Positions 42,526 through 64,000 of a DNA stretch of 64,000 nucleotides are shown piece after piece. Where the stretch lies: positions 1 through 64,000 of the forward strand of contig NZ_QNFY01000013.1 of assembly GCF_003290185.1 (NCBI RefSeq), in the 5' to 3' direction. How positions within the stretch are numbered: position 1 is the first letter of the stretch; every line of letters begins with the position of its first letter. The translations under genes and the position numbers were made by a program. The notes under the pieces are model-generated. The model had not been told where the DNA came from, did no database searches, and saw only the letters and a program-made list of their open reading frames with translations. This DNA comes from Chryseobacterium lathyri. GTDB lineage: Bacteria; Bacteroidota; Bacteroidia; Flavobacteriales; Weeksellaceae.

Positions 42526-42972
42526 ATGCGAAATAAAAGACTAATTATAGATATTGTTGTCCTGCTACTGGTGATATTGTTTCTTTATACAGCAGTGAGC
42601 AAATTTGTGGATTTTAAGGGTTTCACTTATGACTTAAATAATCAACCATTCCCAAACAGTTTAACCCCGATTCTGCGATGGTTAGTTCCGCTTACTGAAA
42701 TAGGAATAGTTTTAGGACTCATATTTGAAAAAACAAGGTTACTGGCATTATACGCATCATTAATTTTAATGAGCCTCTTCACAATTTATACAGCACTTGT
42801 ATTATTCCATGTGTTCGAATATGTACCATGTAGCTGTGGTGGTGTAATAAAGCATCTAAGCTGGCCGCAACATTTAATTTTCAATCTATTTTTTGTTGTT
42901 ATCACCTATTTGGCTATTTGGTCCTTCAAAAAATCTGAGCCAGAAAACTATACATATAATCAAATACAATAA
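42526..42972 (+). CDS. MauE/DoxX-like redox-associated membrane protein
   Basis: 148 aa with four membrane helices (IVVLLLVILFLYTAVSKFVD; ILRWLVPLTEIGIVLGLIF; LLALYASLILMSLFTIYTAL; LIFNLFFVVITYLAIWSF). The loop before the last helix carries PCSCGG, the conserved Cys pair of MauE-type proteins, which support disulfide formation or electron transfer at the membrane. It is followed by two DUF6520 peptide genes in the same direction. The N-terminal domain of the protein at 60399 is a close relative. Confidence 0.85.
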   Translation: MRNKRLIIDIVVLLLVILFLYTAVSKFVDFKGFTYDLNNQPFPNSLTPILRWLVPLTEIGIVLGLIFEKTRLLALYASLILMSLFTIYTALVLFHVFEYVPCSCGGVIKHLSWPQHLIFNLFFVVITYLAIWSFKKSEPENYTYNQIQ

Positions 42973-43070
42973 ATGAGATCAGTTTAATGAATCATAATTA
43001 TTGGGTCCAAAATAAGGGGAAGCTGAAAACCTTCAAACCAGAGTAAGCAACAAATCAAAAACTTTTTATT

Positions 43071-43325
43071 ATGAAAAATTTTAAATTATTATTAGGTGCG
43101 GCAGTATTATTTGCCGTTGGAAGCGCTTTCACTTCAAGTAATAAAGCCGCTGGAGAGTATGTGTTAATTAGTGGTACTTACCAATTAAAATCAAGCAGAC
43201 CAGCAGGAAACTGCGAAAGTATGCAAAGTGCAACCTGCGATTATACTAAAATTAATCCGTCAGGAAGTAATACTGATCCATCAAATTTTACTCCTCATAC
43301 GACTAACGCTAGTTGGGTTGAGTAA
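43071..43325 (+). CDS. DUF6520-family secreted peptide, copy 1
   Basis: 84 aa. Signal peptide about 1-20 (LLGAAVLFAVGSAFTSS). The mature part has a short strand (GEYVLISGTYQLKSSRP), a CX7C pair and a conserved tail (DYTKINPSGSN, DPSNF). It lies 99 bp after MauE and 64 bp before a second copy. The cysteines are the probable substrate of MauE/TlpA redox partners (inference). Confidence 0.8.
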   Translation: MKNFKLLLGAAVLFAVGSAFTSSNKAAGEYVLISGTYQLKSSRPAGNCESMQSATCDYTKINPSGSNTDPSNFTPHTTNASWVE

Positions 43326-43389
43326 TAATGTTTAAATAGAAGTATGATCACTTTTGCTCATACTTCTATTAATCCATAGAACCAAGAAC

Positions 43390-43650
43390 ATGAAAAATTT
43401 CAAATTAATACTATTCGCGTCAATTAATATAGCATTGGCAGCTGCGCTGAACACAAAAATAAAGGTTACTTCGGAGGAATATGTTTTAATTGGCTCAACT
43501 TTTCATTTGATGTCTTCACGCCCTCCCGGAGTATGTGTAATCCAGCCTGGAGAGGTTTGTGATTATATAAAAATTAATCCTTCTGGCAGCAATGTTGATC
43601 CTTCCAATTTTGTCCCTAATACTATTAACGCAAAATGGGAAGAAGAATAA
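43390..43650 (+). CDS. DUF6520-family secreted peptide, copy 2
   Basis: 86 aa. Signal peptide, then EYVLIGSTFHLMSSRPPG, a CX7C pair and DYIKINPSGSN...DPSNF. Most of the mature region is conserved with copy 1 while the spacer between the cysteines differs. ATG 43390 is chosen over an upstream in-frame ATG because the signal peptide MKNFKLILF matches copy 1 there. Confidence 0.8.
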   Translation: MKNFKLILFASINIALAAALNTKIKVTSEEYVLIGSTFHLMSSRPPGVCVIQPGEVCDYIKINPSGSNVDPSNFVPNTINAKWEEE

Positions 43651-43697
43651 AAATTGCAAAGGGAAACATTTACAAACTAGACAATTAAAATAAATAT

Positions 43698-43744
43698 AGT
43701 GGCCGCTTCCTGTGTTTTCTAAGGCAAATAAAGGAAGCGGCTAC
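43698..43744. terminator. Convergent-gene hairpin
   Basis: GTGGCCGCTTCCT pairs with AGGAAGCGGCTAC with one mismatch across a 20-nt loop, between the DUF6520 and TlpA genes. Confidence 0.6.
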
Positions 43745-43749
43745 CATAT

Positions 43750-45105
43750 TTAAAGACATGAATTTATTAATTCAATTAGGTAATTCTCTTCTTTTGGAGT
43801 ATGAGGTTCAGGTGGACTTGCGCTAACAATCCGTCCATCTTTATCTATTAGAATTGTGTGAGGATAGCTTTTAATGTTATAATGTTCAATGATCTTTGAT
43901 TTACTTCCCTCATCATTAGTATACAAATCTATGCTTCCCGGATGCGTATATTTATGATTTTTTATTGAATTTTTCCACATTTTCTGATCCCTATCAATAC
44001 TTATGCTGACAAAAATTATATTTGGATTATTTTTAAAAAGTTGATAAATACCAGTCATTTTCTCATTTAATAGTTGGCACCAACCGCAACCTGTAAAAAA
44101 GAAATCTAATAATACTATTTTGCCCTTAAAATCACTTTGCCTAACTATATTTCCTGACGTATCTCTTAAAGCAAAGTCGTATGCTGGACTTTTTGGCGAT
44201 GAATTTGCTTTGAAATTTTTCAAGGCATCTATGCAATAATCAGTTTTAATAGTCTTTAAAACATCTGAAATTAAAGCAACATCCTGATTATTTTTGATGG
44301 ATTTATTAATAAAATATAATGTTAGTAATCGATCTCTCAATATATCATGAAAGTTTTTGTTAATATATTCAACAGCAGTTTGAGGTTCTAACTTTCTCAT
44401 CATAATTGCTTTCAAAATATAATTCAAGTAACCAGAAGACTCATTTAAAACCTTATCGGACATTCCTAGCTTGGACTCTGATTTTCTAATGAAATCTTCA
44501 TAGTTTACATACATAAAATCGAAATTAGCGTCAAACAAATAGTCCGCTTTTATAATTTGAAAGATATGTTTTTTGATTTTAGGCTTGAACTCCTTCAGTG
44601 CTTTTTTAACAATATTGCTTTTACCTTCTTTAAAAAAACTTAAGTTAGTTTGAGTTTTGCGCCAACTTTCAAAATCTTCCTCAATTTTATTCTTGAATTG
44701 AAGTTTTTCTTTTCCTCTACCCGAAAAGATTACCCGTTCATTATAAATTTTAATTTCAATATTATCGGATGGTTCAACGATTGAAGAAAGAAATAGAACT
44801 TTACCACTTCGAGTTATTAAATTAGCGTATAGAAAAGCTTGTTGTTTTTCGAATATAATCTTTATTGGTTCTCCAATTTTAGCTGAAATTGTATTCAATG
44901 GCATTGACAATTCCGCTGAGCCAATTCCCCAATTATTATCTCGATATGTTAGATCAACACTATCATTAGATAGTTGCTTGTCAAAGCTGACAGTAATAAA
45001 CGCTACTTTAGTTTCGTCCTTAGTTTTGTTTTTAGGTGCTGCTTTGCCATAATTGAGGGTTAGCAAACAATAGACTAAGGTCAATATTAAATATTTCATT
45101 TTCAT
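43750..45105 (-). CDS. TlpA-family disulfide reductase, C-terminal thioredoxin (copy 2)
   Basis: 451 aa. Signal peptide (LILTLVYCLLTLNYGKAA). The N-terminal 310 residues contain a beta-rich part (IVEPSDNIEIKIYNERVIF, SGRGKEKLQF) and helices; the thioredoxin domain covers about 320-451 with active site GCGWCQL and cis-Pro SYPHTILID. It is the last gene of the leftward cargo operon and a tandem relative of the next gene. It is probably exported and tethered near the SusCD complex; no lipobox Cys is evident. Confidence 0.87.
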   Translation of the reverse strand: MKMKYLILTLVYCLLTLNYGKAAPKNKTKDETKVAFITVSFDKQLSNDSVDLTYRDNNWGIGSAELSMPLNTISAKIGEPIKIIFEKQQAFLYANLITRSGKVLFLSSIVEPSDNIEIKIYNERVIFSGRGKEKLQFKNKIEEDFESWRKTQTNLSFFKEGKSNIVKKALKEFKPKIKKHIFQIIKADYLFDANFDFMYVNYEDFIRKSESKLGMSDKVLNESSGYLNYILKAIMMRKLEPQTAVEYINKNFHDILRDRLLTLYFINKSIKNNQDVALISDVLKTIKTDYCIDALKNFKANSSPKSPAYDFALRDTSGNIVRQSDFKGKIVLLDFFFTGCGWCQLLNEKMTGIYQLFKNNPNIIFVSISIDRDQKMWKNSIKNHKYTHPGSIDLYTNDEGSKSKIIEHYNIKSYPHTILIDKDGRIVSASPPEPHTPKEENYLIELINSCL

Positions 45106-45277
45106 ATATTTAGAATTTATGGATGAATATTCATTTCAATGTATGTAATTGAAATATGTATTCATACTAATTTTTCTACACTTTATTTTTACCTCGAACA
45201 ATCTTTTTATGGTTAGCAAATAATCATCAAGATTTGATCGATAATTACTAAGACGGCTATTTTTACAACTAAAATTT

Positions 45278-46804
45278 CTACAAAGCGGTCTTAATCATCT
45301 GAATTAGGGTTGTGCTATTCTTTTTATTATGTGGTTTTGGCGGGTTAGCACTAATTATTTTCCCATCTTTTCCTATTAATATGAGTGTGGGATAACCATA
45401 AACATTATAATGCTGAATTATTTTAGAATTCGCTCCATTCCCATTTGTATACAAATCAATGCTTCCCTTATGTGTATATTCTAAACTTCGCACAGAATTG
45501 ATCCACTCCTTCCTATCTTTGTCAATATTTACACTAACAAATTTGACATTTGGGTTATCTTTGAATAATTGCACAATTGGCGTCATTTTATCATTCAAAA
45601 TTTTACATGAGCCACAGCCGGTAAAGAAAAAGTCGAGCAAAACGACTTTTCCTTTAAAATCACTTTGTCTTACAACATTTCGCAGAGTGTCTGTCAGTTC
45701 GAATTCAAAGGCCACGCTTCCTGGTGAAGAATGACATAAAGATTTTCGGAGTATTTCAATACAGTTTTCTGAATTCATATGTTTCAAAGCATAAGAAATT
45801 GTCTCTACCTCTCGATCTGATTTGATTTTATTCTTAATAAGAAAGCGAGTCAACAATCTATCTCTAAGTAACCCTGAGTAATTATTAATTATATAATCAA
45901 CAATGGCTTTTGGGCTGTTGGTAATTCTAGTTTTAGGATTATACATCTGTGTTCTTATATCCTGCAATAAAAATTCGATTAACTCCTTAGATAAAGGATG
46001 CAAAACAGTATTTTTAAACGAGTGACGTATATAATTTGCTTTCTCTGGATTTATTTTATCAAGAACCATAAAGCTAGAGTCAGCATTTTCCTTTCCCTTA
46101 AAAATGATATAGTTAATACCATCATTAAAGGACTTAAGATATTCAGATTCGATTTTACTTAAGTAATCTAATTTTAATAATTCAAATATTTCTTGGGGTA
46201 TCCTCCCTTTATACTTATCTAAAAGAGTTAAAACAATCTGTTTCTTTTTTTTGTTGTATTGCAAGCTTTTAATGAAACCCTGTTTTGTTGATTCAACATT
46301 AAACTCTTCTGTAACTGCATTCGAAATATTATTTGATAATTCTGAAACTTTCGAAAGAGAATCGTCTCGGAAAAAATTCAATAATTCAAGCTCATTTTCT
46401 ACTTCTTGCACAAATTGATATTTCTCTTTGCCTCGTCCATCTATGATGATTCTATTTCTAAGTACATGAAAAACAATACTATCGTTTGGTTCAATTATAT
46501 TCTCAATTAGCAAAGGTCTACAATCGCCAATAGAAAGACTTCCATAAAGGAATTTTTCACCATTTTCAAAATTCATTTTTAGCTGGTAGCCAAGCTTACC
46601 ATTTATAATCTGCCGAGGAACCCCTGACAAATTACTCCACTGATTTTCCTGGTAGATAAGAAACAAACTGTCTTTGATAGAGTAGTTCCTTGAATGAACA
46701 TAAAATTGTGCTTTCGATATTTTTTTATCGCTTATTTTTAGCTGAGCTAAAACTATGTTTATGGTCAAAAAATTTAATATAATGAATATTAGTGTTTTTT
46801 TCAT
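45278..46804 (-). CDS. TlpA-family disulfide reductase, C-terminal thioredoxin (copy 1)
   Basis: 508 aa. Signal peptide (LIFIILNFLTINIVLAQ). Same layout as the 43750 protein: beta-rich IEPNDSIVFHVLRNRIIID with GRGKEKYQF, a helical middle, then thioredoxin about 375-508 with active site GCGSCKI and cis-Pro GYPTLILIG. Its start codon overlaps the SusD stop by one base, so it is coupled to the SusCD genes. The two copies differ in the CxxC dipeptide (GS versus GW), which usually changes redox potential. Confidence 0.88.
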   Translation of the reverse strand: MKKTLIFIILNFLTINIVLAQLKISDKKISKAQFYVHSRNYSIKDSLFLIYQENQWSNLSGVPRQIINGKLGYQLKMNFENGEKFLYGSLSIGDCRPLLIENIIEPNDSIVFHVLRNRIIIDGRGKEKYQFVQEVENELELLNFFRDDSLSKVSELSNNISNAVTEEFNVESTKQGFIKSLQYNKKKKQIVLTLLDKYKGRIPQEIFELLKLDYLSKIESEYLKSFNDGINYIIFKGKENADSSFMVLDKINPEKANYIRHSFKNTVLHPLSKELIEFLLQDIRTQMYNPKTRITNSPKAIVDYIINNYSGLLRDRLLTRFLIKNKIKSDREVETISYALKHMNSENCIEILRKSLCHSSPGSVAFEFELTDTLRNVVRQSDFKGKVVLLDFFFTGCGSCKILNDKMTPIVQLFKDNPNVKFVSVNIDKDRKEWINSVRSLEYTHKGSIDLYTNGNGANSKIIQHYNVYGYPTLILIGKDGKIISANPPKPHNKKNSTTLIQMIKTAL

Positions 46805-48189
46805 TACCGAATGTTTTGAATTAATGGATTAAGATTAATTTCCACTGGAGGGATTGGAAAGACATATCTAGGACTATTAGGTTCTATTTTATAATTTTCA
46901 CCAGCAATTGTTCTTGTGATAGTTATAGCATTTTTAGAATCGAGATTGAACCTTCTTAAATCTTCCCATCGTAGATTTCCAGTAAACGGGAGCTCTTTTC
47001 TGCGCTCTAAAATTATTAATGATAGGGCTTCGTCACTATTTTGGACTGATTTATCTATATAAGTACTTATACCGTTTTCCTTTTTCCAACGATATTTAAG
47101 TAATAAATTTAAATCACTAATTGCTTCTTTAAAACTACCCAATCGTGCCAATGATTCAGCTCGGATTGTAAGAATCTCATTTAGAGCAATACCGCAGAAA
47201 AATGCAGTCCCTCCTGTATAGCGTCCTCCAAAGTTAACCGTCCCATTTGCGTTTAATCTATAAAATACTTTGCGACGTAAATCGTTAGGTTCATAACTGT
47301 CCAGTAATTCTTTAACTACCGCCATGTTCTGCCTATTATTAAAATTATAATTGTTTGTTTCTCCATAAAAAATAATTTCCGGATTATTATTTCGGATTGT
47401 AGGAAATGGAAAATTTACTGTGGTACTTAAAATGTTGAAATCTAAAAGTTCGATGTTTCTAGCCAGCACAAGGTCAGCAAACTCCTTTGCTTTTTGATAA
47501 TTTTGAGTATTAAAGTATACCTTTGAAAGCATTCCTTGCGCCGCAGGTTTTGATGGTCTTGTTTTAAAATCCACTTTAGTAGGTAGTAATGATTCCGCCT
47601 CCAAAAGATCTTTAAAGATCTGATCATAGGTTTCTTTTAATGTGGAACGTTGAGGTAAATCATTAACATCAGAATTCAATTTTAAAGGTAACCCTAAATC
47701 TGATGAAGCAGAGGTTTCTTTGTATTGTTTCGAATATATTTGTGCTAGTTGATAGTAAGCAAATGCCCTAAAAAATAAAGCACTTCCTTTAATTTCTAGC
47801 AGCCTAATATCCTTAGTTTTAAACTTTTCTACACCTTCAATAACCACATTAGCATATTCAATAACTTTATATGGGTTGGTCCAATCACTTGCTAATAAAT
47901 TCCCTTCATATATATCCTGAGCCCACTTATAGGCATTTCTTTCCATCACTGTCCCAGAAGTTGTTGCTATTTGGTCTAAAACATAGGAGTTATCTGCCCC
48001 AATAATTCCAATTGCTGGATAGCCCACATTCATTACATCTGTGTTATCCAATAATGCTTGGAAATCGTCTGCTGTCGAAGGTATAATATCTGACTTACCA
48101 GATTTCTTTTCTAACCATTCATCTTGCTTTTTGCAACTTAAAAGCAATACTCCATATAAAATATAAATTATAATATTTTTCATCATCAT
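46804..48189 (-). CDS. RagB/SusD-family outer membrane lipoprotein
   Basis: 461 aa. Lipobox LLLSC (Cys about residue 17-18), then SusD-like domains with DWTNPYKVIEYANVVIEG, GSALFFRAFAYYQLAQIYSK and, near the C terminus, ILERRKELPFTGNLRWEDLRR. Any of the three ATG codons at 48183-48189 could be used; the frame continues upstream only into susC. It starts one base after the susC stop and ends by overlapping the TlpA gene. Confidence 0.91.
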   Translation of the reverse strand: MMMKNIIIYILYGVLLLSCKKQDEWLEKKSGKSDIIPSTADDFQALLDNTDVMNVGYPAIGIIGADNSYVLDQIATTSGTVMERNAYKWAQDIYEGNLLASDWTNPYKVIEYANVVIEGVEKFKTKDIRLLEIKGSALFFRAFAYYQLAQIYSKQYKETSASSDLGLPLKLNSDVNDLPQRSTLKETYDQIFKDLLEAESLLPTKVDFKTRPSKPAAQGMLSKVYFNTQNYQKAKEFADLVLARNIELLDFNILSTTVNFPFPTIRNNNPEIIFYGETNNYNFNNRQNMAVVKELLDSYEPNDLRRKVFYRLNANGTVNFGGRYTGGTAFFCGIALNEILTIRAESLARLGSFKEAISDLNLLLKYRWKKENGISTYIDKSVQNSDEALSLIILERRKELPFTGNLRWEDLRRFNLDSKNAITITRTIAGENYKIEPNSPRYVFPIPPVEINLNPLIQNIR

Positions 48190-48190
48190 T

Positions 48191-51100
48191 TTATTTAAAA
48201 GTAGTTCGGATTCCAATGGAAATCGTAGTTGGATTTGGATATGTATTAAAACCGGAATAATAGAACTCACTAATGTCGGGATCAATACCTTTTTTATTTT
48301 TTCGCCATAATATTCCGATATTATTTATATAACTGTAAACCTGCAATGTAGAGAATGGCAGACTCTGGAGTGATTGTTTATTAAAATCATAACTTAGACT
48401 AAGATCCTGTAGTCGTATATGGTCAGCTTTTTCAATCAGAGATTCGGAACTTTGATAAAAAGTATTACGATTGTAATTGAAATCATATAAAACAGAGGGA
48501 ACTGTAGTACGCGTTTCATCTCCAGGGTTTTGCCATCGGTCTTGAAATTCTTGATTAACACTTCCGTCTGCAATAACATTTGCATAAACTAATGATGTAG
48601 ATTTCCGTCGGAAATAGTGTCCAAATTTGAAAGTAATATTAGCGGATAATGAAAATCCTTTATATGAAAAGGAGTTTCTCAAAGAACCGAAGTGTGTGGG
48701 TCTTGATGAACCGTGATAAATTATATCATCTATGCTAGAGGTTGTTATGATCTTAAGATAATCTTTACTTAATTCGCCGTTAAGAAATCCTTGGGGATCA
48801 CCATTTGTTGGATCAAGACCTGCAGATTTAAAACTATAAATACCAAATAAGCTGTTTCCTTCCTTAATATATAAGCCATAACGAGCGGGCCCACCAGTAT
48901 TGCTCGATGTCGATGTTAGATATTGCGAAGTATATTTTGTGTCATAAGATATTACTTTATCTTTATTATAACTTAATAGTATAGTCGTATTCCATTTAAA
49001 ATTACCATTAAGATTTACTGAGTTTAAATTAATATCAAAACCTTTTGTCTTAACAGTTGCTGCATTTCCTTTGTAAGAAGAAAACCCGGTTGAATGTGCT
49101 AACAAAGCATCCTCGATAAGATCAGTACCTAACTTCTCATAAATTTCAAATGAACCATTCAAGCGATTACCTTTAGATGAAAAATCTAAAGCTAGATTTT
49201 TATTTCTAATTTTTTCCCACCTTAATTCTGCGTTTGGGGCACTCGTGATGTAGGCAATTGGTAGTCCAGTAATTGGGCTGACATCATAGGTTGCCGTCAA
49301 ATAGGATGAGGCATTATATACATTTCCATTATATCCAAATGATGCCCTTAGTTTTAAATAAGGTATTAACGAAAATTTATAGAACGATTCTTTGCTGATA
49401 TCATAAGCAACACCAGTTGACCAAAGTGGTGTCATTTTATCATTTGTTTTCACTCCAAAAATGTTTGCACCATCTTTTCTTCCACTCAGCGATAAAGTAT
49501 ATTTACCTAAATACGTATAAGCGCCGTTTGCATAATAAGATATATATCTATTTGTATTACCTATAATTTTCCCAAGAGGAGACGGAAGAACCGTTGATCC
49601 AAGTGCCGATGGGTTGATTGGATAAGGAATATTATAATTTAAATTAGTTACAGAAGTTCCAAACTCATCATTGTAGCCATACAACGCTTTATCAGTACTC
49701 TCACTTACTATTTCTCTTACCTCAGATCCCGCAATTGCAGATACTAAATGTTTTTGTGAAAATTCTTTATTAAAATTCAGCTGTGTTCTGAAGTTATTGG
49801 AATACAATTTTCTGTCTGTTAAATAGAGAATTCCTCCTTTTGGAAAAGGGTATGTAAATGAGCCCTCACTAGATCGCTGGCTGTACATATTAACGAAATT
49901 TCTTGCTTCATAACTGTCGGGACTTCGGTAACCACGATTATTTCCGAATTCATTTTCATGCTGATATTGAATTTCAGCATTTAAGAAATCAGTGAAATTA
50001 TAACGGACAATGCCTCTTATAAGGATGTTATCAGTTTTAGTACTGGTATCATAAAGGTCTCTTTCTTGAATGGGCCTATATTTCCAATCTAAAAAGCCTA
50101 AATTTTGGCTATTTTCAAGATAACTGTCTCTTTTTCCATATGGTACTGCTAGCGGATTTTTACTATCATCAACAAAACTTATATATGGATACGGAGAAGT
50201 GTATTGATATCCAAATTTATTCTCACTCTTTGTATATAATACAGAACCTGTAATTTCCAAATTTTTAATGGGATGATATGTATTTGTAGAATTAATAGTA
50301 AACCTATTGTTTCCGGATTCATACAATGTATTACGGTTTTTGTCATATCCTATCGAAAGTGAATAAATAGCTTTTTCCGAACCGCCTCTAAAACCCAATG
50401 AATATTGTTGATTAATGCTGGGACGATAAAAATATTCGGATGTTTGGTCGCGAACATCAACATTTCTCAATCTATTTATTTGGTCAGTAATATTCTCATT
50501 TGAAGGATCGTTTCTTTGTTTCGATAAAAGCTCAACTACTGGTGATATTACAGGGTAGTAATTGTTATCGTTTAAATTGGGATCATAATACCCCTTATTA
50601 AAAAGAAACGTCTCGACATCAATAAATTCAGAGGATTTAAGAAAATTTCTTGAATATTTTAAATTTGGCCTTGCCCCTACGGTTAAATTTGAATTAAAAT
50701 CAATCTTTAAAGGTTGATTAAATTTTCCTTTTTTGGTACTGATTACAATGACACCATTCCCAGATCTCGAACCCCAGATCGAAGCAGCAGCAGCATCTTT
50801 AAGTACTGTGATGCTTTCAATGTCATTTGGATTTATATTATTAATATCTCCTTCATAGGGAAAATTGTCAAGTACAACCAGAGGATCAGCGCTAACTTTA
50901 TCATCAATTGTAACCCTTCCTCTTATGCTTATTCCTAATTTTTCATTCGGAGGATTCAACCCTATTGGACCTGAAATTTTATTAAATATCAATCCACTTG
51001 TGACACCATCTAAACGATCTAAAATATTTGTACTAACCCGTCTATTTAATAGTTGGTTGTCGATTTGGACAAAGGAGCCTGTGGCTCTTTCTTTCGGTAT

Positions 51101-53129: not shown

Positions 53130-53717
53130 TTAGAAATTAATCAATAGAAATGCTATACCGGCACCGCTGAGCCTCTTTTTTAGGATAGAAATCGCTCTAG
53201 CTTTTTGAGCTTTTACCGTACTTACAGTTATTTCTAGATCGTCAGCAATTTCTTTTGCATTTTTATCTTCTTCAAATAACTGTTTCATTATCAGTTTGCA
53301 CTTTGTGGGCAAAAGATCAATTTCAGCGCTGATTTCCCTGACCAATTCAGAATAGATAATGTTTTTCAAAATATTATCTTCTGATTCATCAAATGATGAA
53401 ATGTATTGGTCAAACCGTCGTAGACGTACTTTCTCTTTCTCGATCCTGTTGAGGCAGGCATTTTTAGCAGAAATATAAAGAAAAGCCTTCACACTATCCA
53501 TCGTTTTGAAAGAAGTTCTTTTATCGTAGAGTTTTACAAAAATGTCCTGAACAATTTCTTCAGCATCGTTAAGATTATAAGATAATATAAGTCTGTTGGC
53601 AAAGAAAACAAGTGCTGGTTGGAATTTATGGAAGATTTCGCTAAAAGCATATTGATCCCCTTCTGCAAATCTTAGCGCTAAAAAATCCTGCGTCATATTT
53701 TCCAAGTTCTTCATCAT
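53130..53717 (-). CDS. RNA polymerase sigma-70 factor, ECF subfamily
   Basis: 195 aa. Region 2 (NDAEEIVQDIFVKLYDKRT, FLYISAKNACLNRIEK) and region 4 (LLPTKCKLIMKQLFEEDKN, HTH with ISTVKAQKARAI-like recognition helix). Start ATG 53717; an in-frame TTG four codons upstream is less likely. A well-formed promoter lies just upstream. With FecR and the STN-SusC it completes a trans-envelope signalling relay. Confidence 0.92.
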   Translation of the reverse strand: MMKNLENMTQDFLALRFAEGDQYAFSEIFHKFQPALVFFANRLILSYNLNDAEEIVQDIFVKLYDKRTSFKTMDSVKAFLYISAKNACLNRIEKEKVRLRRFDQYISSFDESEDNILKNIIYSELVREISAEIDLLPTKCKLIMKQLFEEDKNAKEIADDLEITVSTVKAQKARAISILKKRLSGAGIAFLLINF

Positions 53718-53735
53718 TGAGGGGGTCAAGTAATA

Positions 53736-55579: not shown

Positions 55580-55734
55580 GGAAATAGGAAAGTTTACCAT
55601 CAAAATTATAAAAATTCACTCAATTATGAATACGGTCATTATGTGTACTTCTTTTATTGATTAACGTCCACACAGTCACCATCATTAGCTATATTTTGAG
55701 GCGAGCGAATTCATGAATTAGCACGTGCGCATTC

Positions 55735-56299: not shown

Positions 56300-56743
56300 A
56301 TGTGTATGGATATTTTAGTTAAAAACTTGTCTTATTTTCGATCAAGCCTTCAAGAATTACTGGATACAAACTTTCCTGAAAAAGCTTATGATTCAAATTT
56401 CATTTCCAAACGTTCAAATTGGGCATACAAAGCTTATGAAGGGGCTCTGCAAGGAAAAAACAGCGAAGAAGAGGCTGAAAAAATTGCAAACTCAATACTT
56501 TTTGAGCGACTATACTTTTCCAAGTTCAACACTGTATTACAAGTCATTATTTATGAATTCGATACTTATTTCATGGACGAAGAATTAAGACCATTTGCAT
56601 TAAGAATGCTTAAAGAGTGTGAATTTGTATTTAAAAAATATGATTTAACAGATGACTTTGCATATAGTACTTCCTATGATTATCTTTATCAAGATCTAAA
56701 GAATACTATTACGGTCTGTTTGCAAAATAACTTAAATCCGTAA
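56300..56743 (+). CDS. DUF1896 family protein
   Basis: 147 aa. The family pattern is clear: LSYFRSSLQELLDTNFPEK, then KRSNWAYKAYEGAL and LFERLYFSKFNTVLQVIIYE. DUF1896 genes are part of the backbone of CTnDOT-like elements, usually close to topB and a helicase/methylase gene. No such large gene follows here. Its return after 14 kb of SusCD-type genes marks the end of the cargo insertion. Confidence 0.82.
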   Translation: MCMDILVKNLSYFRSSLQELLDTNFPEKAYDSNFISKRSNWAYKAYEGALQGKNSEEEAEKIANSILFERLYFSKFNTVLQVIIYEFDTYFMDEELRPFALRMLKECEFVFKKYDLTDDFAYSTSYDYLYQDLKNTITVCLQNNLNP

Positions 56744-56880
56744 TCCTAATTTCAAAAGAGAACCCTACATTACCAGAAAACAAAAGAAGAGCTGTTGTTA
56801 ATTTTTAAGATTATCAGCAGTTTTTTCTTTGTAAAGTCACTATTGATTTTTAAAAATTACTATTCTTTTTATCTTTATGT

Positions 56881-57171
56881 ATGAAAGCTGAAATCAGAAT
56901 ACCAGAGAACTTCCAGCTCTATTCTAGCAAAGGTCCATTATATTCAAATTTCGATACTGAATTGAATATGGATATTGCAAATGAAATATTGAATAAACCT
57001 CTAATTGCTGAATTTATAGCTTATCATTTTCATGGCTTAATATGGTGGAACGATAAATTAGGTTTCTGGTGCGTCGAAGTTTCACAAAATAATCTTTACA
57101 AAAGTTCTTACATCTCTGAAGACCTCTCGTCTCTAATCGATGAAGTGCAAAAAATCTTTGGCAAAGATTAA
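56881..57171 (+). CDS. Hypothetical protein of ICE backbone
   Basis: 96 aa, not recognised. Balanced composition with aromatic-rich middle (FIAYHFHGLIWWNDKLGFW) and a C-terminal helix. It has an upstream TATCTTTA -7-like motif and reads in the direction of DUF1896 and the coupling protein. Confidence 0.6.
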   Translation: MKAEIRIPENFQLYSSKGPLYSNFDTELNMDIANEILNKPLIAEFIAYHFHGLIWWNDKLGFWCVEVSQNNLYKSSYISEDLSSLIDEVQKIFGKD

Positions 57172-57204
57172 ATTCAATCTCTTTCATTTTCATTGGTACA
57201 TATT

Positions 57205-57244
57205 GCCAAAAGTAACCTTCAAATGCCTATGAAGGTCACAATAA
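57205..57244 (+). repeat. Phased decamer array 8
   Basis: GCCAAAAGTA, ACCTTCAAAT, GCCTATGAAG and GTCACAATAA, contiguous, ending 52 bp before the coupling-protein start. ACCTTCA/TGAAGGT within it is also an inverted repeat. Confidence 0.68.
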
Positions 57245-57296
57245 CAATCGGATAATCACCACAATTATTTTCGCTTGCAACATTAATAACGTTGAT

Positions 57297-59297
57297 ATGC
57301 AAGGAGATGACGATTTAAGAGGATTGGCAAAAATTATTGCTTTTATGAGGGCAGTGAGTATCATTTTGATACTTATGCATTTTTATTGGTTTTGCTTCAG
57401 TGCGTTTGCTGATAAGGGGTGGACCATCGAGGTCGTTAATCGTATTTTGACAAATTTCCAAAGGACAGTAGGTTTATTTTCACATACCCTTTATACCAAG
57501 GCTTTTGCATTCCTGCTCCTTGCCTTAAGTTGTTTGGGAACGAAGGGTGTAAAAAATGAAAAAATTACTTGGACAAAAATTAATTCCGTTTTAATAGTTG
57601 GAACTCTTCTATATTTTTTTAACACATCATTATTATTCCTTTCTCCCGAAATAGGCTTCTTTTTATACATTCTCACGACAAGTACTGGTTACATTTCATT
57701 GATGGTAGGTGGAATTTGGTTAAGTCGATTATTGAAAAATAATCTGATGGATGATGTTTTCAATAATGAAAACGAAAGTTTCCAACAGGAAACCAAATTG
57801 ATGGAAAATGAATATTCGGTGAACCTTCCCACAAAATTCTACTATAAGCAAAAGTGGAATAATGGCTGGATAAATATTGTAAATCCATTCCGAGCAACGA
57901 TTGTACTGGGTACACCTGGATCTGGTAAATCATATGCAGTCGTAAACAATTACATAAAACAACAAATTGAAAAAGGTTTTTCAATGTATATCTATGATTT
58001 CAAGTTTGACGACCTCTCTACCATTGCATACAATCACTTGCTGAGGAATACAGATAAATATAAAATCAAACCACAGTTTTATGTAATCAACTTTGATGAT
58101 CCGAGAAAAAGCCACCGTTGCAACCCACTTAATCCAGATTTTATGACTGACATTTCGGATGCTTACGAGGCTGCTTACACCATAATGCTGAATCTAAATC
58201 GGTCGTGGATCCAAAAACAGGGCGATTTTTTCGTCGAATCTCCCATTATTCTACTAGCAGCCATTATCTGGTACCTGAAAATCTATGATAATGGCAAGTA
58301 CTGCACTTTCCCTCACGCTATAGAATTGCTGAATAAAAGATATGAAGATGTATTTACTATTCTTACGTCATACCCCGAATTGGAGAACTATTTGTCACCT
58401 TTCATGGACGCATGGCAAGGAGGAGCGCAAGACCAGTTGCAAGGGCAAATAGCATCTGCAAAAATTCCCTTGTCAAGAATGATAAGTCCGCAATTGTATT
58501 GGGTAATGACCGGAGATGATTTTTCGCTCGATATCAACAATCCCGAAGAGCCAAAGATTTTGTGTGTCGGTAATAATCCAGATAGGCAAAATATTTATTC
58601 TGCCGCATTGGGGTTGTACAATTCAAGAATTGTAAAACTCATTAATAAGAAAGGACAATTAAAAAGTTCGGTTATTATTGACGAGCTACCCACGATATAT
58701 TTCAGGGGACTCGATAATCTTATCGCGACTGCGAGAAGTAATAAAGTGGCGGTTTGTTTGGGCTTTCAAGATTTTTCACAGTTAATACGTGATTATGGTG
58801 ATAAAGAAGCTAAGGTAATACAGAATACGGTTGGTAATATTTTCAGCGGCCAGGTGGTTGGAGAAACAGCGAAAAGTTTGTCAGAACGTTTCGGAAAGGT
58901 ATTGCAGAAGCGTCAAAGTATGACTATCAATCGTAACGATAAATCCACTTCAATTTCTACACAGTTAGATAGTCTTATTCCAGCTTCAAAAATTTCGACC
59001 TTAACACAAGGAATGTTTGTAGGCGCGGTCTCCGATAATTTCGATGAGCGCATCGAACAAAAAATATTTCACGCAGAGATAGTCGTGGATAATGAAAAGG
59101 TAGCCGCTGAAACCAAAGCATATAAAAAGATTCCGCAGATATTATCCTTCACTAATGATAATGGAGTAGATGGCATGAAAGAAGTTATTGAGCTGAATTA
59201 TAGGCAGGTCAAACTAGATATTCTTGGAATTATTGATAGGGAATTAGATCGAATTGCAAATGATCCGGATTTAGCTCATTTACTAAAGAAGGAATAG
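57297..59297 (+). CDS. mobC: VirD4/TraG-type conjugative coupling protein (MobC-like)
   Basis: 666-aa type IV coupling ATPase that would hand the relaxase-DNA complex to the conjugation pore. Membrane helices lie in residues 1-145; the cytoplasmic ATPase has Walker A LGTPGSGKSYAV (205-213) and Walker B VIIDELPTIYF (about 463-474), followed by LIATARSNKVAVCLGFQD, the usual sensor region. Length and order match MobC of Bacteroidota ICEs. It is the only transfer gene of element B inside the window, and could also serve element A in trans. Confidence 0.92.
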   Translation: MQGDDDLRGLAKIIAFMRAVSIILILMHFYWFCFSAFADKGWTIEVVNRILTNFQRTVGLFSHTLYTKAFAFLLLALSCLGTKGVKNEKITWTKINSVLIVGTLLYFFNTSLLFLSPEIGFFLYILTTSTGYISLMVGGIWLSRLLKNNLMDDVFNNENESFQQETKLMENEYSVNLPTKFYYKQKWNNGWINIVNPFRATIVLGTPGSGKSYAVVNNYIKQQIEKGFSMYIYDFKFDDLSTIAYNHLLRNTDKYKIKPQFYVINFDDPRKSHRCNPLNPDFMTDISDAYEAAYTIMLNLNRSWIQKQGDFFVESPIILLAAIIWYLKIYDNGKYCTFPHAIELLNKRYEDVFTILTSYPELENYLSPFMDAWQGGAQDQLQGQIASAKIPLSRMISPQLYWVMTGDDFSLDINNPEEPKILCVGNNPDRQNIYSAALGLYNSRIVKLINKKGQLKSSVIIDELPTIYFRGLDNLIATARSNKVAVCLGFQDFSQLIRDYGDKEAKVIQNTVGNIFSGQVVGETAKSLSERFGKVLQKRQSMTINRNDKSTSISTQLDSLIPASKISTLTQGMFVGAVSDNFDERIEQKIFHAEIVVDNEKVAAETKAYKKIPQILSFTNDNGVDGMKEVIELNYRQVKLDILGIIDRELDRIANDPDLAHLLKKE

Positions 59298-59478: not shown

Positions 59479-60270
59479 ATGAACACATATCTATTATCAC
59501 TGGTAGAAAGAACGGTTAAGGACGCTATTGAAGAGTTCGCAAAACTTCCCTGGGTCTTTCCGGCTTTTCACACTAATCGAATTGATGTTATTCAACTTCA
59601 GTTGAATAAACTCATGGATTATTATATTGAATTTTTTCAAAAAACTGGATTTCTGCCTACAGAACTGGATTTATTTAGAAAGTCTTGCGTTATTGAACGA
59701 AAAATAAAGAATTTTAAAAAAACCAAAAATGATGAAATTTTATCGGGTTTCTCATTTGTCATTGAACAGATAGAAGATAATGTAAAAAATCAGATAATTC
59801 CTATCCAAGTACAATATCCTAAGACAACAAATTTCGCATTATTGACTGGAATCGCTGCAACCGATTCATGTGGTAAAATCATCACTTTTATCCTTCATGA
59901 ATTTACGATACCAAGGGTTTTAATTAATATAATTCCCAAAGATCTTGATTACATTGAACGTTTCTTGGACATATATGATGGAAAAGTAGGACGGTCGTTA
60001 ATGGACTTTGTTACATCGTATAATAGGAACTATAAGCAATTTCAAAAAGATTGTAAGATTTATCTCGAAGATACGTTTTATCAATTTTATATAAAAAAAA
60101 AGATGATCGGGGCAAACCGGGATATTCTTTTTTCGGATATGACCATGAAGGAAGTAGCATATAATAACCAATTCGGAGACTATTTAAATCTGTATAGATT
60201 ATTTAATCAACATTATAAAATATCTCTGGATAAAATACCCAGATTCAAACAAATATTATATTATCGATAA
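59479..60270 (+). CDS. Probable AraC-like regulator with degenerate DNA-binding domain
   Basis: 263 aa. Helical N-terminal two-thirds with no recognised fold. The C-terminal 70 residues resemble the second half of an AraC HTH (MTMKEVAYNNQFGDYLNLYRLF), while the first HTH helix pair is not clear. It precedes the MauE fusion and DUF6520 genes and may regulate them. Confidence 0.5.
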   Translation: MNTYLLSLVERTVKDAIEEFAKLPWVFPAFHTNRIDVIQLQLNKLMDYYIEFFQKTGFLPTELDLFRKSCVIERKIKNFKKTKNDEILSGFSFVIEQIEDNVKNQIIPIQVQYPKTTNFALLTGIAATDSCGKIITFILHEFTIPRVLINIIPKDLDYIERFLDIYDGKVGRSLMDFVTSYNRNYKQFQKDCKIYLEDTFYQFYIKKKMIGANRDILFSDMTMKEVAYNNQFGDYLNLYRLFNQHYKISLDKIPRFKQILYYR

Positions 60271-60398
60271 TAATATTCCTACTAGTGGGAATTTAATATA
60301 ATAAAAAAGCATTTTTTTGAAATACATTAGCTCTTTCTAGATATTTTTTTTCACAAAAGGTTTTGGAAATTTGATTGTAATTAATCAGTAAGCCGATT

Positions 60399-61922
60399 GT
60401 GATGAAAAAGTATTTAGCAAAAGACTATGCAAATATTGTTGCTTATTTTATAGCACTGCTTTTTGTATATGCTGCTATGAGTAAACTTTTGGATTTTGAA
60501 AATTTTGAAGTTCAGCTTGCGCAATCCCCATTGTTAAGTGCTTATGCAGGGTTTATTTCCTATGCTGTAATATTTGTAGAGCTACTTCTTGCAATATTAC
60601 TTTGTCTACCCAATACTCAGATAATTGCATTGTATGGTTCGTTAGGACTAATGTCTGCTTTTACCATTTATATATACCTTATTTTAAAATATAGTGACTT
60701 TGTTCCTTGTTCATGTGGAGGAATATTGGAAAAGTTAGGCTGGACCGAACACTTGATTTTTAATATAGTGGTAGTGGTACTTATTTTTTCGGCTATTATT
60801 TACCGTTCATGGAAAGAAAATCGTCTCAAAAAATTAACCTTACCCCTATCCATTTCATTTAGTACCATCATAATTAGCTGTGGACTTGTGGTTGCTTTAT
60901 TTTTAAGTTCGGAACATATTATAAAAAAAGCCAATAATTTCACGAGGAGATTCTTGATGCATCCTATTATTGGAGACAAGAAAATTAGTTTAGATAATGA
61001 AAACTATTATTTTGCTGGCAATGATAAGTCTCATATATATTTAGGCAATAAAAGTTACCCTCAAACTTTGTTCTCTATTGATACTGCTTTTGGTGATTCC
61101 GTAAGAATTAAAATAATACCGGACAATCTTCAACACAACTTCCGTAATATTCAGGTAAAAGTTAAGGCTCCATACTATTATTTTTATGATGGTTCCGTAC
61201 CTGTAATCTTCCGTGGTAACCTTGGGAAAGAGAATGCAGAAACGATAAGTTTAAAAGATGCTTTTTTTACACAATTTGTTCCTATTGACTCTACAAAATT
61301 TGTCCTAAGAACGCTAAGCAGGAGAAATAAAGAACTTACACTAGCATCTTTGGATTTAAATGCAACTCCTAAGTTAAAATTATATCCTATGGTTCTTGAA
61401 AAGCAGGTTGACGGAGTCTTTGATGTTGATGGAGGGTTAGTCAGGAGTAATAATACAGTAAATATATTATACACGTACAATTATAGAAATCAATTTATTT
61501 CAATGGACGACAAATTAAATGTCCTAAAACGATTAAATACAATCGACACTACAACACATGCGAATATTCAGACAACTGCACTATCGGATGGAAGGCATAA
61601 ACTAAGCGCTCCGCCGTTTAAAGTTAATAGCATGACACACGCGAATCGTAATCTCATTTTCATACAGTCTAACCTCATGGGTAAACATGAGTCAAGGGAA
61701 TCATGGAAAAAAGCAAAAATAATAGATGTTTATCGAACTGACGCGAAGGCCTATATTGGAAGTTTTTATCTCTATAACGGTAAAAATTCAAGTGTGAAAG
61801 ACTTTTGGGTTACTGATAATTATTTGTATGTACTAGTTGGCTCTAAGTTACAAAGGTTTTATTTCAGAGAACCAATATTAAGTTACTTTAAAAAAGACAA
61901 AGGGGAAACCGAAAACCTTTAA
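60399..61922 (+). CDS. MauE-type membrane domain fused to a large periplasmic domain
   Basis: 507 aa. Residues 1-140 are a MauE domain with four helices and the Cys motif FVPCSCGGILEKLGW, matching the stand-alone MauE at 42526. A fifth helix (about 150-172) leads to some 330 exported residues of beta-rich sequence with repeated hydrophobic-aromatic strands (for example YYYFYDGSVPVIFRG, NNTVNILYTYNYRN, DNYLYVLVGSKLQRFYF), suggestive of a beta-propeller. The fusion ties redox chemistry to an extracytoplasmic binding domain. It is followed 34 bp later by a DUF6520 peptide gene, so they form one unit. Confidence 0.8.
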   Translation: MMKKYLAKDYANIVAYFIALLFVYAAMSKLLDFENFEVQLAQSPLLSAYAGFISYAVIFVELLLAILLCLPNTQIIALYGSLGLMSAFTIYIYLILKYSDFVPCSCGGILEKLGWTEHLIFNIVVVVLIFSAIIYRSWKENRLKKLTLPLSISFSTIIISCGLVVALFLSSEHIIKKANNFTRRFLMHPIIGDKKISLDNENYYFAGNDKSHIYLGNKSYPQTLFSIDTAFGDSVRIKIIPDNLQHNFRNIQVKVKAPYYYFYDGSVPVIFRGNLGKENAETISLKDAFFTQFVPIDSTKFVLRTLSRRNKELTLASLDLNATPKLKLYPMVLEKQVDGVFDVDGGLVRSNNTVNILYTYNYRNQFISMDDKLNVLKRLNTIDTTTHANIQTTALSDGRHKLSAPPFKVNSMTHANRNLIFIQSNLMGKHESRESWKKAKIIDVYRTDAKAYIGSFYLYNGKNSSVKDFWVTDNYLYVLVGSKLQRFYFREPILSYFKKDKGETENL

Positions 61923-61956
61923 AAGAGTAGGTAATAACAAATTTAATAAACACATT

Positions 61957-62226
61957 ATGAAAAAATTATTAATGCCTGCAATCATTCTGGGATTGGGCGC
62001 AGGTGTGGCATTTGCTGGAAATTTAAACAGTAGCGCTAAGAAAGCATTAGTAGATGCCTACCGATTTGACAACGCACAGAACCTTTGTGTGAAAGTCGAA
62101 AACCAACAATGTAGCGATATTCAAAGTGCAGAAGTATGTACTTGGGCAGAAAATTCTTCAGTTACATTACACGAGCAAGGTGAAACTATGTGTGGTGATG
62201 AATTGTACAAAATTCCACAAAATTAA
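61957..62226 (+). CDS. DUF6520-like secreted Cys-rich peptide
   Basis: 89 aa. Signal peptide about 1-21 (AIILGLGAGVAFAG). The mature part has four cysteines (CX7C, CX8C, then a distant Cys), more than the two of the other copies in the window. It sits directly after the MauE fusion gene and before a strong terminator. Confidence 0.72.
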   Translation: MKKLLMPAIILGLGAGVAFAGNLNSSAKKALVDAYRFDNAQNLCVKVENQQCSDIQSAEVCTWAENSSVTLHEQGETMCGDELYKIPQN

Positions 62227-62238
62227 ACCTTAAAAGAA

Positions 62239-62265
62239 ATGAGCCCGAAGGAATATCGGGCTCAT
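62239..62265. terminator. Bidirectional terminator
   Basis: ATGAGCCCGA and TCGGGCTCAT form a perfect 10-bp stem with a 7-nt loop, between the convergent DUF6520 and S9 peptidase genes. Confidence 0.8.
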
Positions 62266-62306
62266 TATAACAAATTTAATAACTAACGTTGTATAACGTT
62301 CAGGCA

Positions 62307-64000
62307 TTATAAAGTGCATCCTTTTTTATTATGTAATTGTTTATCAATCCAAGTTGCATTTTTATGATCCTTTAAAAAGTAATCCCACCATTCTAATATT
62401 CTCACCTGCAAATCTTCTGCTTCCGGGGTATTATTTAAAATTGTGTGGCTTTGGTTTGGATAAAATACTGCTATCACCTGTTTGCCATTCCGTTTTAAAC
62501 CGATATAAAATTCCTGTGTATGTTGCCATGGAACATTTTTATCTTTCATCCCTGCCCATAGCAATATGGGAGCATTGACCTGATCAACAAAATTTATCGG
62601 ATTGTTTTTATAATATTGCTCCTTGTTTTCAGAAAAGGGTGGCATTTGATGCTGACCATTTTCGATTCTAGCATATTCTGCAATTTTGAAATTATAATTA
62701 TATGAAAAGTAAGCCCTAACGATATCACTAAATCCAGAACTTGAAATATAAGCAGCAAAACGCTTAGATTGGGTCGCTATAAAATTCGTTTCATAACTAC
62801 CAAAAGAATGTCCGGTTAAACCCACTTTTGCCATATTAATGTTTGAATTGACCGACACCGCATCTAAAGCCTTGTCCACACAGTCCAATGCAGAAACCCC
62901 CATCCCTTTTGTAGAGATAGAAATGTCAGGTTCATAAACAAAGTATCCTCTTCGCAGTAATGATCTTCGATCATAGCCAATAAAAGATATTCCCAAAACT
63001 GGATATTTGTTTGCAGAAGTACTTTGTTTCTCGTAAACCTGTACGATCATTGGGTACTTTTTTTTAGGATCAAAATGAATTGGATAATAAAGGACTCCTT
63101 TCAATTCTTCATTGTCTTTGTTTTTATAGTGGACAATTTCCTGTTTTATTGTATTTGAAATACGATCAGATTTATTGCTCTGATAAATAACTCTATCCTG
63201 TATTTTTCCAAGGGAAGTATAAATCAACCGAGGTGCTAAATTGTAGTTTTCTTCTATCAAAAAACTATGTCGCTGTGTCGGATCAGTCTTAATTTCTGAA
63301 ATATAATTTAGAGTTTGGTTGTGTAATACTTTAAAATTGCCATTCTTATAACTTAAGATTGATGATCTATTTTCGTTGTCTTTCAATGTAAGTAGAAGTC
63401 CCTTATTCAGGTCTACAGTATTTGAATCTATATTTATTGAAAAACTACTATAATTTCCATTCGATGGATTTCTTTTAACATTTAATATACTTGAAATTTT
63501 CCCTTTTTCACCCATTCTATTTAAGTGCATTGTTTCTGTTTTAAACCACCAGAAATCCTCCATACCATTAAAAAAGATATAATTACCATCTAAACTGAAA
63601 ACTGGATTATGAAGGCCAGGTGGCAGAAATAAACTTGAACCGGAATCCAGATCTAAAATCCGACCATCTTTATCAGCTTCATTTAACAAAACTAAGTATT
63701 GACCATTTGGAGAATGTGAAATGCCAGAAGTTTTTGAAGATAATGGACAATATTTACCAGTTATTATATCATATAAGTAATAATCTACGAGTGGAACATA
63801 GGTAACATAATTATAATTTCCAACCGGATCGAAGCTTAAAAGAAACCTCTTATTGTTAATGGCGGCAAATGATGGAAACCTATCATTTGGGATTTTAATG
63901 CATTTACTGGTTAAAGTATTCCACAGATAGTACTCTGACCGTATACAACCTATATCCTTAGCTTTTAAATTGCTGTCATTACCATACCAAATATCAACTA
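62307..64000 (-). CDS. S9 prolyl-oligopeptidase-family serine peptidase, 5' end outside window
   Basis: About 563 C-terminal residues are visible. I read the frame back to base 64000 and found no stop or convincing start, so the gene continues to the right. The visible N-terminal part is propeller-like (for example NGQYLVLLNEADKDGRILDL). The catalytic alpha/beta-hydrolase domain is at the C terminus: Ser in GHSFGSYETNF, Asp in LLWAGMKDKNVPW and His in NQSHTIL. It would cleave or trim peptides, probably exported. Convergent with the MauE/DUF6520 pair, so it may process those peptides (inference). Confidence 0.88.
   Translation of the reverse strand, partial: VDIWYGNDSNLKAKDIGCIRSEYYLWNTLTSKCIKIPNDRFPSFAAINNKRFLLSFDPVGNYNYVTYVPLVDYYLYDIITGKYCPLSSKTSGISHSPNGQYLVLLNEADKDGRILDLDSGSSLFLPPGLHNPVFSLDGNYIFFNGMEDFWWFKTETMHLNRMGEKGKISSILNVKRNPSNGNYSSFSINIDSNTVDLNKGLLLTLKDNENRSSILSYKNGNFKVLHNQTLNYISEIKTDPTQRHSFLIEENYNLAPRLIYTSLGKIQDRVIYQSNKSDRISNTIKQEIVHYKNKDNEELKGVLYYPIHFDPKKKYPMIVQVYEKQSTSANKYPVLGISFIGYDRRSLLRRGYFVYEPDISISTKGMGVSALDCVDKALDAVSVNSNINMAKVGLTGHSFGSYETNFIATQSKRFAAYISSSGFSDIVRAYFSYNYNFKIAEYARIENGQHQMPPFSENKEQYYKNNPINFVDQVNAPILLWAGMKDKNVPWQHTQEFYIGLKRNGKQVIAVFYPNQSHTILNNTPEAEDLQVRILEWWDYFLKDHKNATWIDKQLHNKKGCTL

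Follow-up and report, generated by a model that had tools for sequence, protein, structure and literature searches.

Paired MauE and cysteine peptide genes facing SusCD operons in Chryseobacterium: candidate modules for an exported peptide, often near transfer genes

A 64,000-nucleotide stretch of the Chryseobacterium lathyri genome (NZ_QNFY01000013.1, positions 1 to 64,000; the window, below) ends in a 21-kb region that the initial annotation had read as one single system of thiol and peptide handling genes. The genes it named were recovered in place by Pfam scans and from the sequence, so its observation is confirmed, while its interpretation is partly supported. The 21-kb region is not one system; it holds two separate modules of a conjugative element, with the DUF1896 and TraG transfer genes of that element between them. 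In each module, a MauE membrane protein and a small cysteine-containing peptide are encoded side by side and face genes for a SusC-SusD (SusCD) importer and an enzyme. The reading that we tentatively prefer, at somewhat less than an even chance, is that of an often mobile module dedicated to a disulfide-constrained exported peptide, with its own uptake and opening machinery. Peptide, candidate oxidase, importer, opener, and sensor are all found in one locus.

Gene Content of the Two Modules

Module B begins on the forward strand with a short MauE membrane protein carrying a PCSCGG motif (42526..42972; PF07291, 112.9 bits against a cut-off of 27). It is followed by peptide D1 (43071..43325, forward), predicted to be exported and bearing a C-x7-C pair, which matches DUF6520 (PF20130) at 29.4 bits, the cut-off being 25.4. 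Next comes its paralogue D2 (43390..43650, forward), which shares 46 of 84 aligned residues with D1 and has, read from the sequence, the same C-x7-C spacing. An ATG at 43390 is a likelier start for D2 than a TTG at 43354. The initial annotation had called both peptides DUF6520; this holds for D1, while D2 has no Pfam match at E 0.01 and is tied to the family as a paralogue of D1. Facing them on the reverse strand are two TlpA-like proteins, the first with a CGWC motif (43750..45105; Thioredoxin_8, 5.7e-19) and the second with CGSC (45278..46804; Thioredoxin_8, 1.3e-17). A SusD-like protein follows (46804..48285, reverse; SusD-like_3, 2.5e-34), whose start as listed is too early, an LLLSC lipobox-like stretch lying inside the frame. 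Then come a SusC-like TonB receptor with an STN-like N terminus (48191..51793, reverse; Plug, 1.1e-11; STN at 24.8 bits, below the cut-off of 28.4), a FecR anti-sigma factor (51918..53066, reverse; FecR, 1.5e-17), and an extracytoplasmic function (ECF) sigma factor (53130..53729, reverse; Sigma70_r2, 1.2e-10). The last gene, TPR-AraC (53822..55603, reverse; HTH_18, 9.4e-10, with weak TPR matches), encodes a regulator with a hydrophobic N terminus, a TPR part, a transmembrane segment, and an AraC helix-turn-helix, a topology taken from its relatives. A promoter and terminator scan of 42200 to 44000 gave no excess over shuffled sequences.

Module A opens with an AraC-type regulator (59479..60270, forward; HTH_18 at 28.3 bits, below the cut-off of 33.6), a relative of which lies upstream of the MauE fusion in 17 of the 60 fusion loci described below. 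The MauE protein is here fused to a predicted beta-propeller (60402..61922, forward; PF07291, 107.3 bits). Behind it lies the four-cysteine peptide D3 (61957..62226, forward), predicted to be exported; the Cys-rich, DUF6520-like peptide that the initial annotation placed after the fusion is thus borne out, its 25.2 bits being marginally below the family cut-off. Convergent with D3 is the C-terminal part of an S9 peptidase (62307..64000, reverse, frame 62307-63998; Peptidase_S9, 1.5e-22). Its gene crosses the window end and encodes a complete protein of 837 amino acids (locus L147), and after it, beyond the window, come SusD, SusC, FecR, and ECF sigma genes (L147).

A chromosomal relative lies at 1935..10375, on the opposite side of the element's integrase from modules A and B. 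It comprises sigma, FecR, SusC, SusD, and TlpA genes and a convergent two-cysteine peptide gene, D0 (about 10.1 kb), and has no MauE. The initial annotation saw here a repeat of SusCD-TlpA-DUF6520. The SusCD-TlpA genes and a two-cysteine peptide are indeed present, but D0 is not DUF6520 by Pfam: it has no match at E 0.01 and reached 12.7 bits (E 0.62) in a separate profile search. Peptides with weak similarity to D0 adjoin SusCD-TlpA genes elsewhere, with MauE (L154 and L157) or without it (L153).

Association of MauE with the Peptide Genes

How regularly do these genes occur together? A survey of 98 Chryseobacterium genomes took DUF6520 matches over the Pfam cut-off of 25.4 bits and counted as strong any MauE match above 95 bits. 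Of 71 such DUF6520 matches, 69 are preceded on their own strand by a strong MauE gene no more than 3 kb away; the two exceptions are L152, with neither MauE nor SusCD in the stretch read, and L153, which sits beside SusCD-TlpA without MauE. Weaker DUF6520 matches have a strong MauE gene within 3 kb upstream in 25 of 35 cases, and nine of the ten misses cover only 22 to 31 profile positions in frames of 229 to 286 amino acids. Viewed from the other side, the best 120 MauE matches reach down to 69.6 bits and divide into 86 long, 20 short, and 14 weaker ones. A DUF6520 match lies downstream of 84 of the 86 MauE frames that are longer than 300 amino acids and score above 95 bits, and in the remaining two (L060 and L110) a four-cysteine peptide missed by the profile follows instead. 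The enrichment of DUF6520 near MauE and SusCD-TlpA genes that the initial annotation had predicted is thus found (69/71 and 84/86).

The Pfam family covers the peptides only in part: D1 is a member and D3 lies at the edge of the cut-off, while D2, D0, and the peptides of 14 of the 20 short-MauE loci go unrecognized. Accordingly, only 6 of the 20 short MauE genes have a DUF6520 match downstream. A two-cysteine peptide nevertheless follows all 20, 19 of them found by script and one (L039) by inspection of the reading frame. Four of the weaker MauE loci were fetched, and three (L154, L155, and L157) consist of MauE, a small peptide, and SusCD-TlpA; L156 does not.

The source genome allows the proximity to SusD to be set against chance. 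Its 4.86 Mb contain 21 SusD-like_3 matches, so that a random place has a chance of about 5% of being no more than 6 kb from one. All four MauE matches above 95 bits (of nine MauE matches at E 0.01) lie that close, which is beyond chance. Four of the 21 SusD loci are in MauE modules and one is the 1.9- to 10.4-kb cluster; the other 16 have no MauE match in the 7.5 to 15 kb fetched.

Two Architectures on One Plan

Flanks of about 20 kb were read for 60 of the 86 fusion loci (one per genome) and for all 20 short-MauE loci; neighboring genes were named by phmmer against the window proteins (E 1e-5), and partners were counted within eight genes of MauE. Two architectures emerge. In architecture A, MauE-propeller and four-cysteine peptide genes converge with SusC, SusD, and S9, each of which is present in 57 of 60 loci. 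In architecture B, a short MauE and a two-cysteine peptide face SusD (20/20), SusC (18/20), and TlpA (18/20). The MauE-peptide pair is convergent with SusD in 77 of the 80 loci. The initial annotation placed S9 and TlpA in one system, but S9 proved to be an alternative to TlpA: TlpA occurs in none of the 60 fusion loci, S9 in none of the 20 short-MauE loci, and the two together in none of the 80. Not all of these loci are independent, since clustering at 90% identity reduces the 60 fusions to 49 groups and the 20 short MauE proteins to 14.

The type of peptide follows the type of enzyme. Among the fusion loci, 57 peptide rows were called, and four cysteines are present in 55 of the 56 beside an intact fusion. 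Four cysteines thus go with S9 and two with TlpA, with one exception (L093). In a further locus, L113, two frames make up a broken MauE-propeller gene, SusC is in pieces, and the called peptide row is a fragment of that broken fusion gene; the locus is probably a decaying copy.

The regulators are swapped as well. The fusion loci carry FecR only (14), TPR-AraC only (44), or both (2), and none of the 60 lacks both; the 20 short-MauE loci have FecR in 7, TPR-AraC in 14, and both in 1. Exclusivity is therefore not strict, module B of the window being a case with both. An RteC-family gene lies no more than five genes upstream of 42 of the 60 MauE fusions (L058 to L117, upstream of TPR-AraC). It is present even at loci without any other named transfer gene (e.g., L063) and may belong to the regulation of the module.

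The Peptides

The peptide of module A and its relatives (the window peptide and 54 of the 72 called) were aligned. An AxA motif (A18 and A20) after a hydrophobic stretch and the four cysteines are invariant in all 55. Export to the periplasm is thereby well supported by sequence, in agreement with the initial annotation's expectation that the peptides leave the cytoplasm. The mature peptide measures 60 to 73 amino acids in the loci measured. Mean identity is 32% in the mature part (27% without the cysteines) versus 52% in the signal part, over the 46 of 60 loci in which all parts were found. Between close relatives, pooled ratios of nonsynonymous to synonymous substitution rates (dN/dS; 42 pairs, repeats included) are 0.13 for the mature peptide, 0.16 for MauE-propeller, 0.23 for S9, and 0.10 for SusC. 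The value for the peptide indicates a real gene under constraint, and diversifying selection on it was not found. An AlphaFold model of the peptide gives a small beta structure, with a predicted local distance difference test (pLDDT) score of about 86 for residues 31 to 89 (73.7 for the whole; predicted template modeling score, 0.52). NVEALA (PF14055) was considered as the same family and rejected: the source genome has no match at E 0.001, and of 198 genomes two match, both below the cut-off.

The Partner Proteins

The MauE fusions (the window protein and 62 of 77) share an invariant PCSCGG motif, which the charges of the loops would place on the periplasmic side. The model of the window fusion (mean pLDDT, 88.7) combines five long helices with a second part that resembles a beta-propeller. 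Its best PDB matches are varied propellers with low TM-scores, the third being a Bacteroides DUF4221 protein (3s9j), and the propeller is therefore given no function here. A profile of the fusions had no match among PDB sequences at E 1.

In the S9 proteins, the catalytic Ser, Asp, and His are conserved without exception across all 127 distinct sequences. Mean identity among 52 Chryseobacterium sequences is 23% in the N-terminal part versus 47% in the last 300 residues, a pattern in which the gate would follow a varying substrate. The 12 S9 and 3 TlpA N termini viewed are hydrophobic and have no clear lipobox, so that these enzymes look soluble and exported.

Does SusC signal to the ECF sigma factor, as the initial annotation supposed? 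Among 52 SusC proteins of fusion loci, those beside FecR have 134 to 156 residues before a conserved reference column (15/15); those not beside FecR have at most 112 in 31 of 37 and 130 to 147, matching the length of the FecR group, in 6 of 37. One SusC of each kind was scanned for STN; the FecR type gave a weak match (18.5 bits, cut-off 28.4) and the other none. With the weak match in module B and a match above the cut-off in the SusC of the 1.9- to 10.4-kb cluster, the longer N terminus beside FecR fits such signaling, but in most Chryseobacterium fusion loci TPR-AraC takes the place of FecR and sigma. TPR-AraC has a transmembrane segment near residues 380 to 408 in 60 of 60 proteins and, by a short-window test, a hydrophobic N terminus in 59 of 60 (8 of 300 internal control stretches pass). 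The TPR part is therefore predicted to be periplasmic, although only 16 of 60 N termini pass a stricter 19-residue test.

Occurrence outside Chryseobacterium

A survey of 395 genomes of the phylum Bacteroidota found 25 with a DUF6520 match over the cut-off. Outside Chryseobacterium, 27 of 29 loci have MauE and SusCD. The other two, L131 and L140, lack MauE; the DUF6520 frame of L131 holds a stop, the candidate of L140 is a Lys-rich protein, and we think both are false family matches. The 27 comprise 20 fusion loci, each of which has S9, and 7 short-MauE loci, of which 6 have TlpA, and at 90% identity they form 19 and 7 clusters, respectively. Four cysteines are present in all 19 peptides called beside fusions. 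The propeller is a separate gene in L118 and L145, and in L118 a four-cysteine peptide is accompanied, in place of S9, by a 786-amino-acid protein without a match to the S9 reference. A wider scan gave 584 candidates, and among the best 80 SusD is present in 70, S9 in 72, and TlpA in none; at least two of the misses (L189 and L225) are at contig ends. Carriers among these best 80 include Chryseobacterium, Sphingobacterium, Pedobacter, Chitinophaga, Flavobacterium, Myroides, Kaistella, Empedobacter, and others.

Identities of the fusion protein suggest that the module has spread by horizontal transfer, since the window protein resembles the fusions of Sphingobacterium athyrii (59% in the best segment), Chitinophaga hostae (56%), and Pedobacter alluvionis (55%) more closely than it does the fusion of Chryseobacterium vrystaatense (44%). 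The regulators differ outside the genus: a reference search found neither FecR nor TPR-AraC in 19 of 20 fusion loci, and in L124, from another family, a PAS-AraC regulator is in their place. A DUF7793 protein (L124 6789-7172) precedes this regulator upstream of the module. A Flavobacteriaceae bin (L232 2918-5815) has a histidine kinase, a response regulator, and an S41 peptidase ahead of the module.

The Conjugative Element and Mobility

The left part of the element (34918..42258, forward) encodes a tyrosine integrase (34.9 kb), RteC, a DUF3945/4099 protein, and TopB. Between the modules lie the DUF1896 protein and the TraG-type coupling protein (56300..59297, forward), and past the window end are a MobA-type relaxase, the TraG ATPase, and TraM. 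All the genes compared with CTnDOT-type elements are thus present (integrase, RteC, TopB, MobA-type relaxase, coupling protein, TraG ATPase, and TraM); the difference is a cargo that includes two peptide modules. The integrase lies directly after mnmE (32564-36087), so the left end of the element is probably near there. A relaxase and MobC-like pair at 12328-14005 lies across the integrase from the two modules and possibly belongs to a second mobile unit. A Transglut_core2 protein (L147 7450-8838) and further genes lie between module A and the element's relaxase.

Is such carriage common? TraM is found no farther than 60 kb away for 44 of the 86 fusion modules and 7 of the 20 short-MauE modules, 51 of 106 in all, with 3.35 expected for random places in 4.8-Mb genomes. 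The count used 73 of 75 TraM rows, two partial rows being left out, and for 27 of the 106 modules none of these 73 rows falls in the same genome. About half of the modules are thus near transfer genes, and the gene set often appears to be mobile. Carriage on plasmids was not seen, a tblastn search with the MauE fusion giving no match in 72,556 plasmid records.

A Possible Peptide Cycle and Its Alternatives

How might the parts work together? The peptide would be exported by Sec and cut near the AxA motif, a step well supported by sequence; from there onward, we infer the course of events. MauE, with its CSC motif in the periplasm, would oxidize one or two cysteine pairs, and the propeller may hold the peptide meanwhile. 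The peptide would then reach the cell surface or the medium, where the cognate SusCD might capture it, alone or with cargo, and bring it back; a metal or thiol ligand as that cargo is a proposal of the initial annotation only. A soluble exported enzyme would open the peptide, S9 for the four-cysteine type and a TlpA reductase for the two-cysteine type. Finally, the event would be sensed through SusC STN, FecR, and ECF sigma or through the membrane-bound TPR-AraC, a step that the features of SusC and TPR-AraC partly support. In its boldest form, the proposal is a Gram-negative peptide cycle: a disulfide-locked peptide is released, retaken by SusCD, unlocked by proteolysis or reduction, and used as a signal or for cargo delivery. 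The two unlocking enzymes, unrelated to each other, and the two sensing branches, likewise unrelated, would have been exchanged within one common framework. We regard this fuller version as doubtful.

Several observations weigh against the preferred reading of a dedicated peptide with its own uptake and opening machinery. No route across the outer membrane was seen among the module genes, and that SusCD binds the peptide is a supposition. The pairwise identities of all module parts correlate alike (0.63 to 0.91 over 46 loci), so that no partner-specific covariation can be separated, and the peptide model has no PDB match at E 0.001. The gene set is also not always complete. MauE-propeller and peptide occur without SusCD or S9 in 3 of 60 loci (L108; L110, near a contig end; and L117), and peptide and SusCD-TlpA occur without MauE at 1.9 to 10.4 kb of the window and in L153. 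In the 20 kb of L152, an over-cut-off DUF6520 peptide is accompanied by no gene named as MauE or SusCD, and the A-type peptide of L093 has two cysteines beside S9. None of the 14 weaker MauE rows (69 to 91 bits, among the matches listed) has a DUF6520 match, and a SusC-SusD-S9 operon of the same type in L238 (G000:C23) has no MauE or peptide gene nearby.

The best-surviving alternative, though a rather unlikely one, keeps the peptide in the periplasm, either as a regulatory or gating subunit of nutrient uptake (probably of peptides) by SusCD with S9 or TlpA or as a thiol carrier between MauE and TlpA. It accords with the lack of a recognized exporter among the named module genes, with S9 and TlpA that look soluble and exported, and with the strong purifying selection on the peptide. 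A thiol carrier, however, leaves the swap of S9 for TlpA with four-cysteine peptides unexplained, and a mature part far more variable than the signal part would be unusual for a general carrier.

Could the peptide instead be a messenger that reports neighbors or other carriers of the element, is sensed by TPR-AraC or FecR-ECF, and is destroyed by S9 or TlpA after uptake? The predicted periplasmic TPR part and the excess of modules near TraM would suit this, whereas close relatives, with their low dN/dS, show no hint that signal types switch, and a quarter of the modules (27/106) come from genomes lacking all the TraM rows used. We judge it unlikely. The chance is also small that the locus is an ordinary nutrient locus, in which SusCD and S9 or TlpA take up and process an outside substrate, MauE and the small protein being retained nearby to help with folding. 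SusCD loci are common, the 16 SusD loci of the source genome without a MauE match being a case in point, and L238 is such an operon without the peptide; but the MauE-peptide pair is directional, convergent with SusD in nearly every Chryseobacterium locus, and the type of peptide predicts the type of enzyme. Least probable is a bacteriocin-like killer peptide with SusCD as its route of uptake and S9 or TlpA as self-protection, for which a peptide, a receptor, a possible destroying enzyme, mobile carriage, and the tandem paralogues D1 and D2 can be cited, but against which stand purifying selection on the peptide, the scanned window proteins, which include no export machine, immunity protein, or toxin family, and the lack of a meaningful PADLOC match. 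A defense system was likewise rejected, PADLOC giving one weak, irrelevant match among eight proteins.

If the proposed cycle is correct, it would explain what DUF6520 and the MauE-propeller fusions are for, and would do the same for a class of SusCD importers whose ligand is encoded alongside. It would also mean that conjugative elements of Chryseobacterium and its relatives carry peptide-exchange modules as cargo.

Comparison with Known Systems

The literature searched (open-licence papers) does not name DUF6520, and no title in it pointed to a gene set combining MauE, SusCD, TlpA, and S9. The parts have described counterparts. For methylamine dehydrogenase, disulfide formation by MauE has been a matter of speculation, and in mauE-containing candidate families of ribosomally synthesized and posttranslationally modified peptides in Streptomyces it is found beside a small precursor, with a role in disulfide formation or another modification proposed (PMC7794033). 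Here, too, MauE adjoins a small precursor gene, but the peptides contain cysteines, SusCD is present, and MauE is often fused to a propeller. RagAB has been described as taking up peptides (PMC11817032) and likewise pairs a SusC with a SusD. Its peptides come from outside, whereas here peptide and MauE genes face the importer operon, and the peptide would be the ligand transported.

The nearest described logic is that of the isopeptidase-type lasso peptide clusters (astexin, sphingopyxin, and benenodin), which combine a peptide, an S9-type opener, a TonB-dependent transporter, and sigma and anti-sigma factors; an ABC exporter is lacking except for rubrinodin, and a siderophore-like cargo role has been proposed (PMC9266682). 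Are the present modules members of this group? No Pfam match to a lasso cyclase or precursor protease was found among 40 window proteins scanned (a subset of the open reading frames). S9 was also rejected as a true lasso isopeptidase. The isopeptidase model is the best NCBIfam match in four of five S9 proteins, yet the scores (57.5 to 95.5 bits for five full-length proteins and 67.8 for the window part) are far below the cut-off of 400, and AtxE2 ranks 14th of 25 PDB profile matches, behind other S9 peptidases. Because of this lack of lasso enzymes and these scores, the clusters serve as an analogy only. The likeness lies in a small encoded constrained peptide, an S9-type enzyme, no exporter seen, and a TonB-dependent transporter with sigma and anti-sigma factors, for which TPR-AraC is substituted in many loci. 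The differences are that the precursor starts with what resembles a signal peptide, the constraint would be disulfides, a SusD protein accompanies the receptor, TlpA can stand in for S9, and the regulators are of the AraC rather than the GntR type. Should the proposed cycle hold, the modules would form a counterpart to these lasso clusters in which disulfides provide the constraint.

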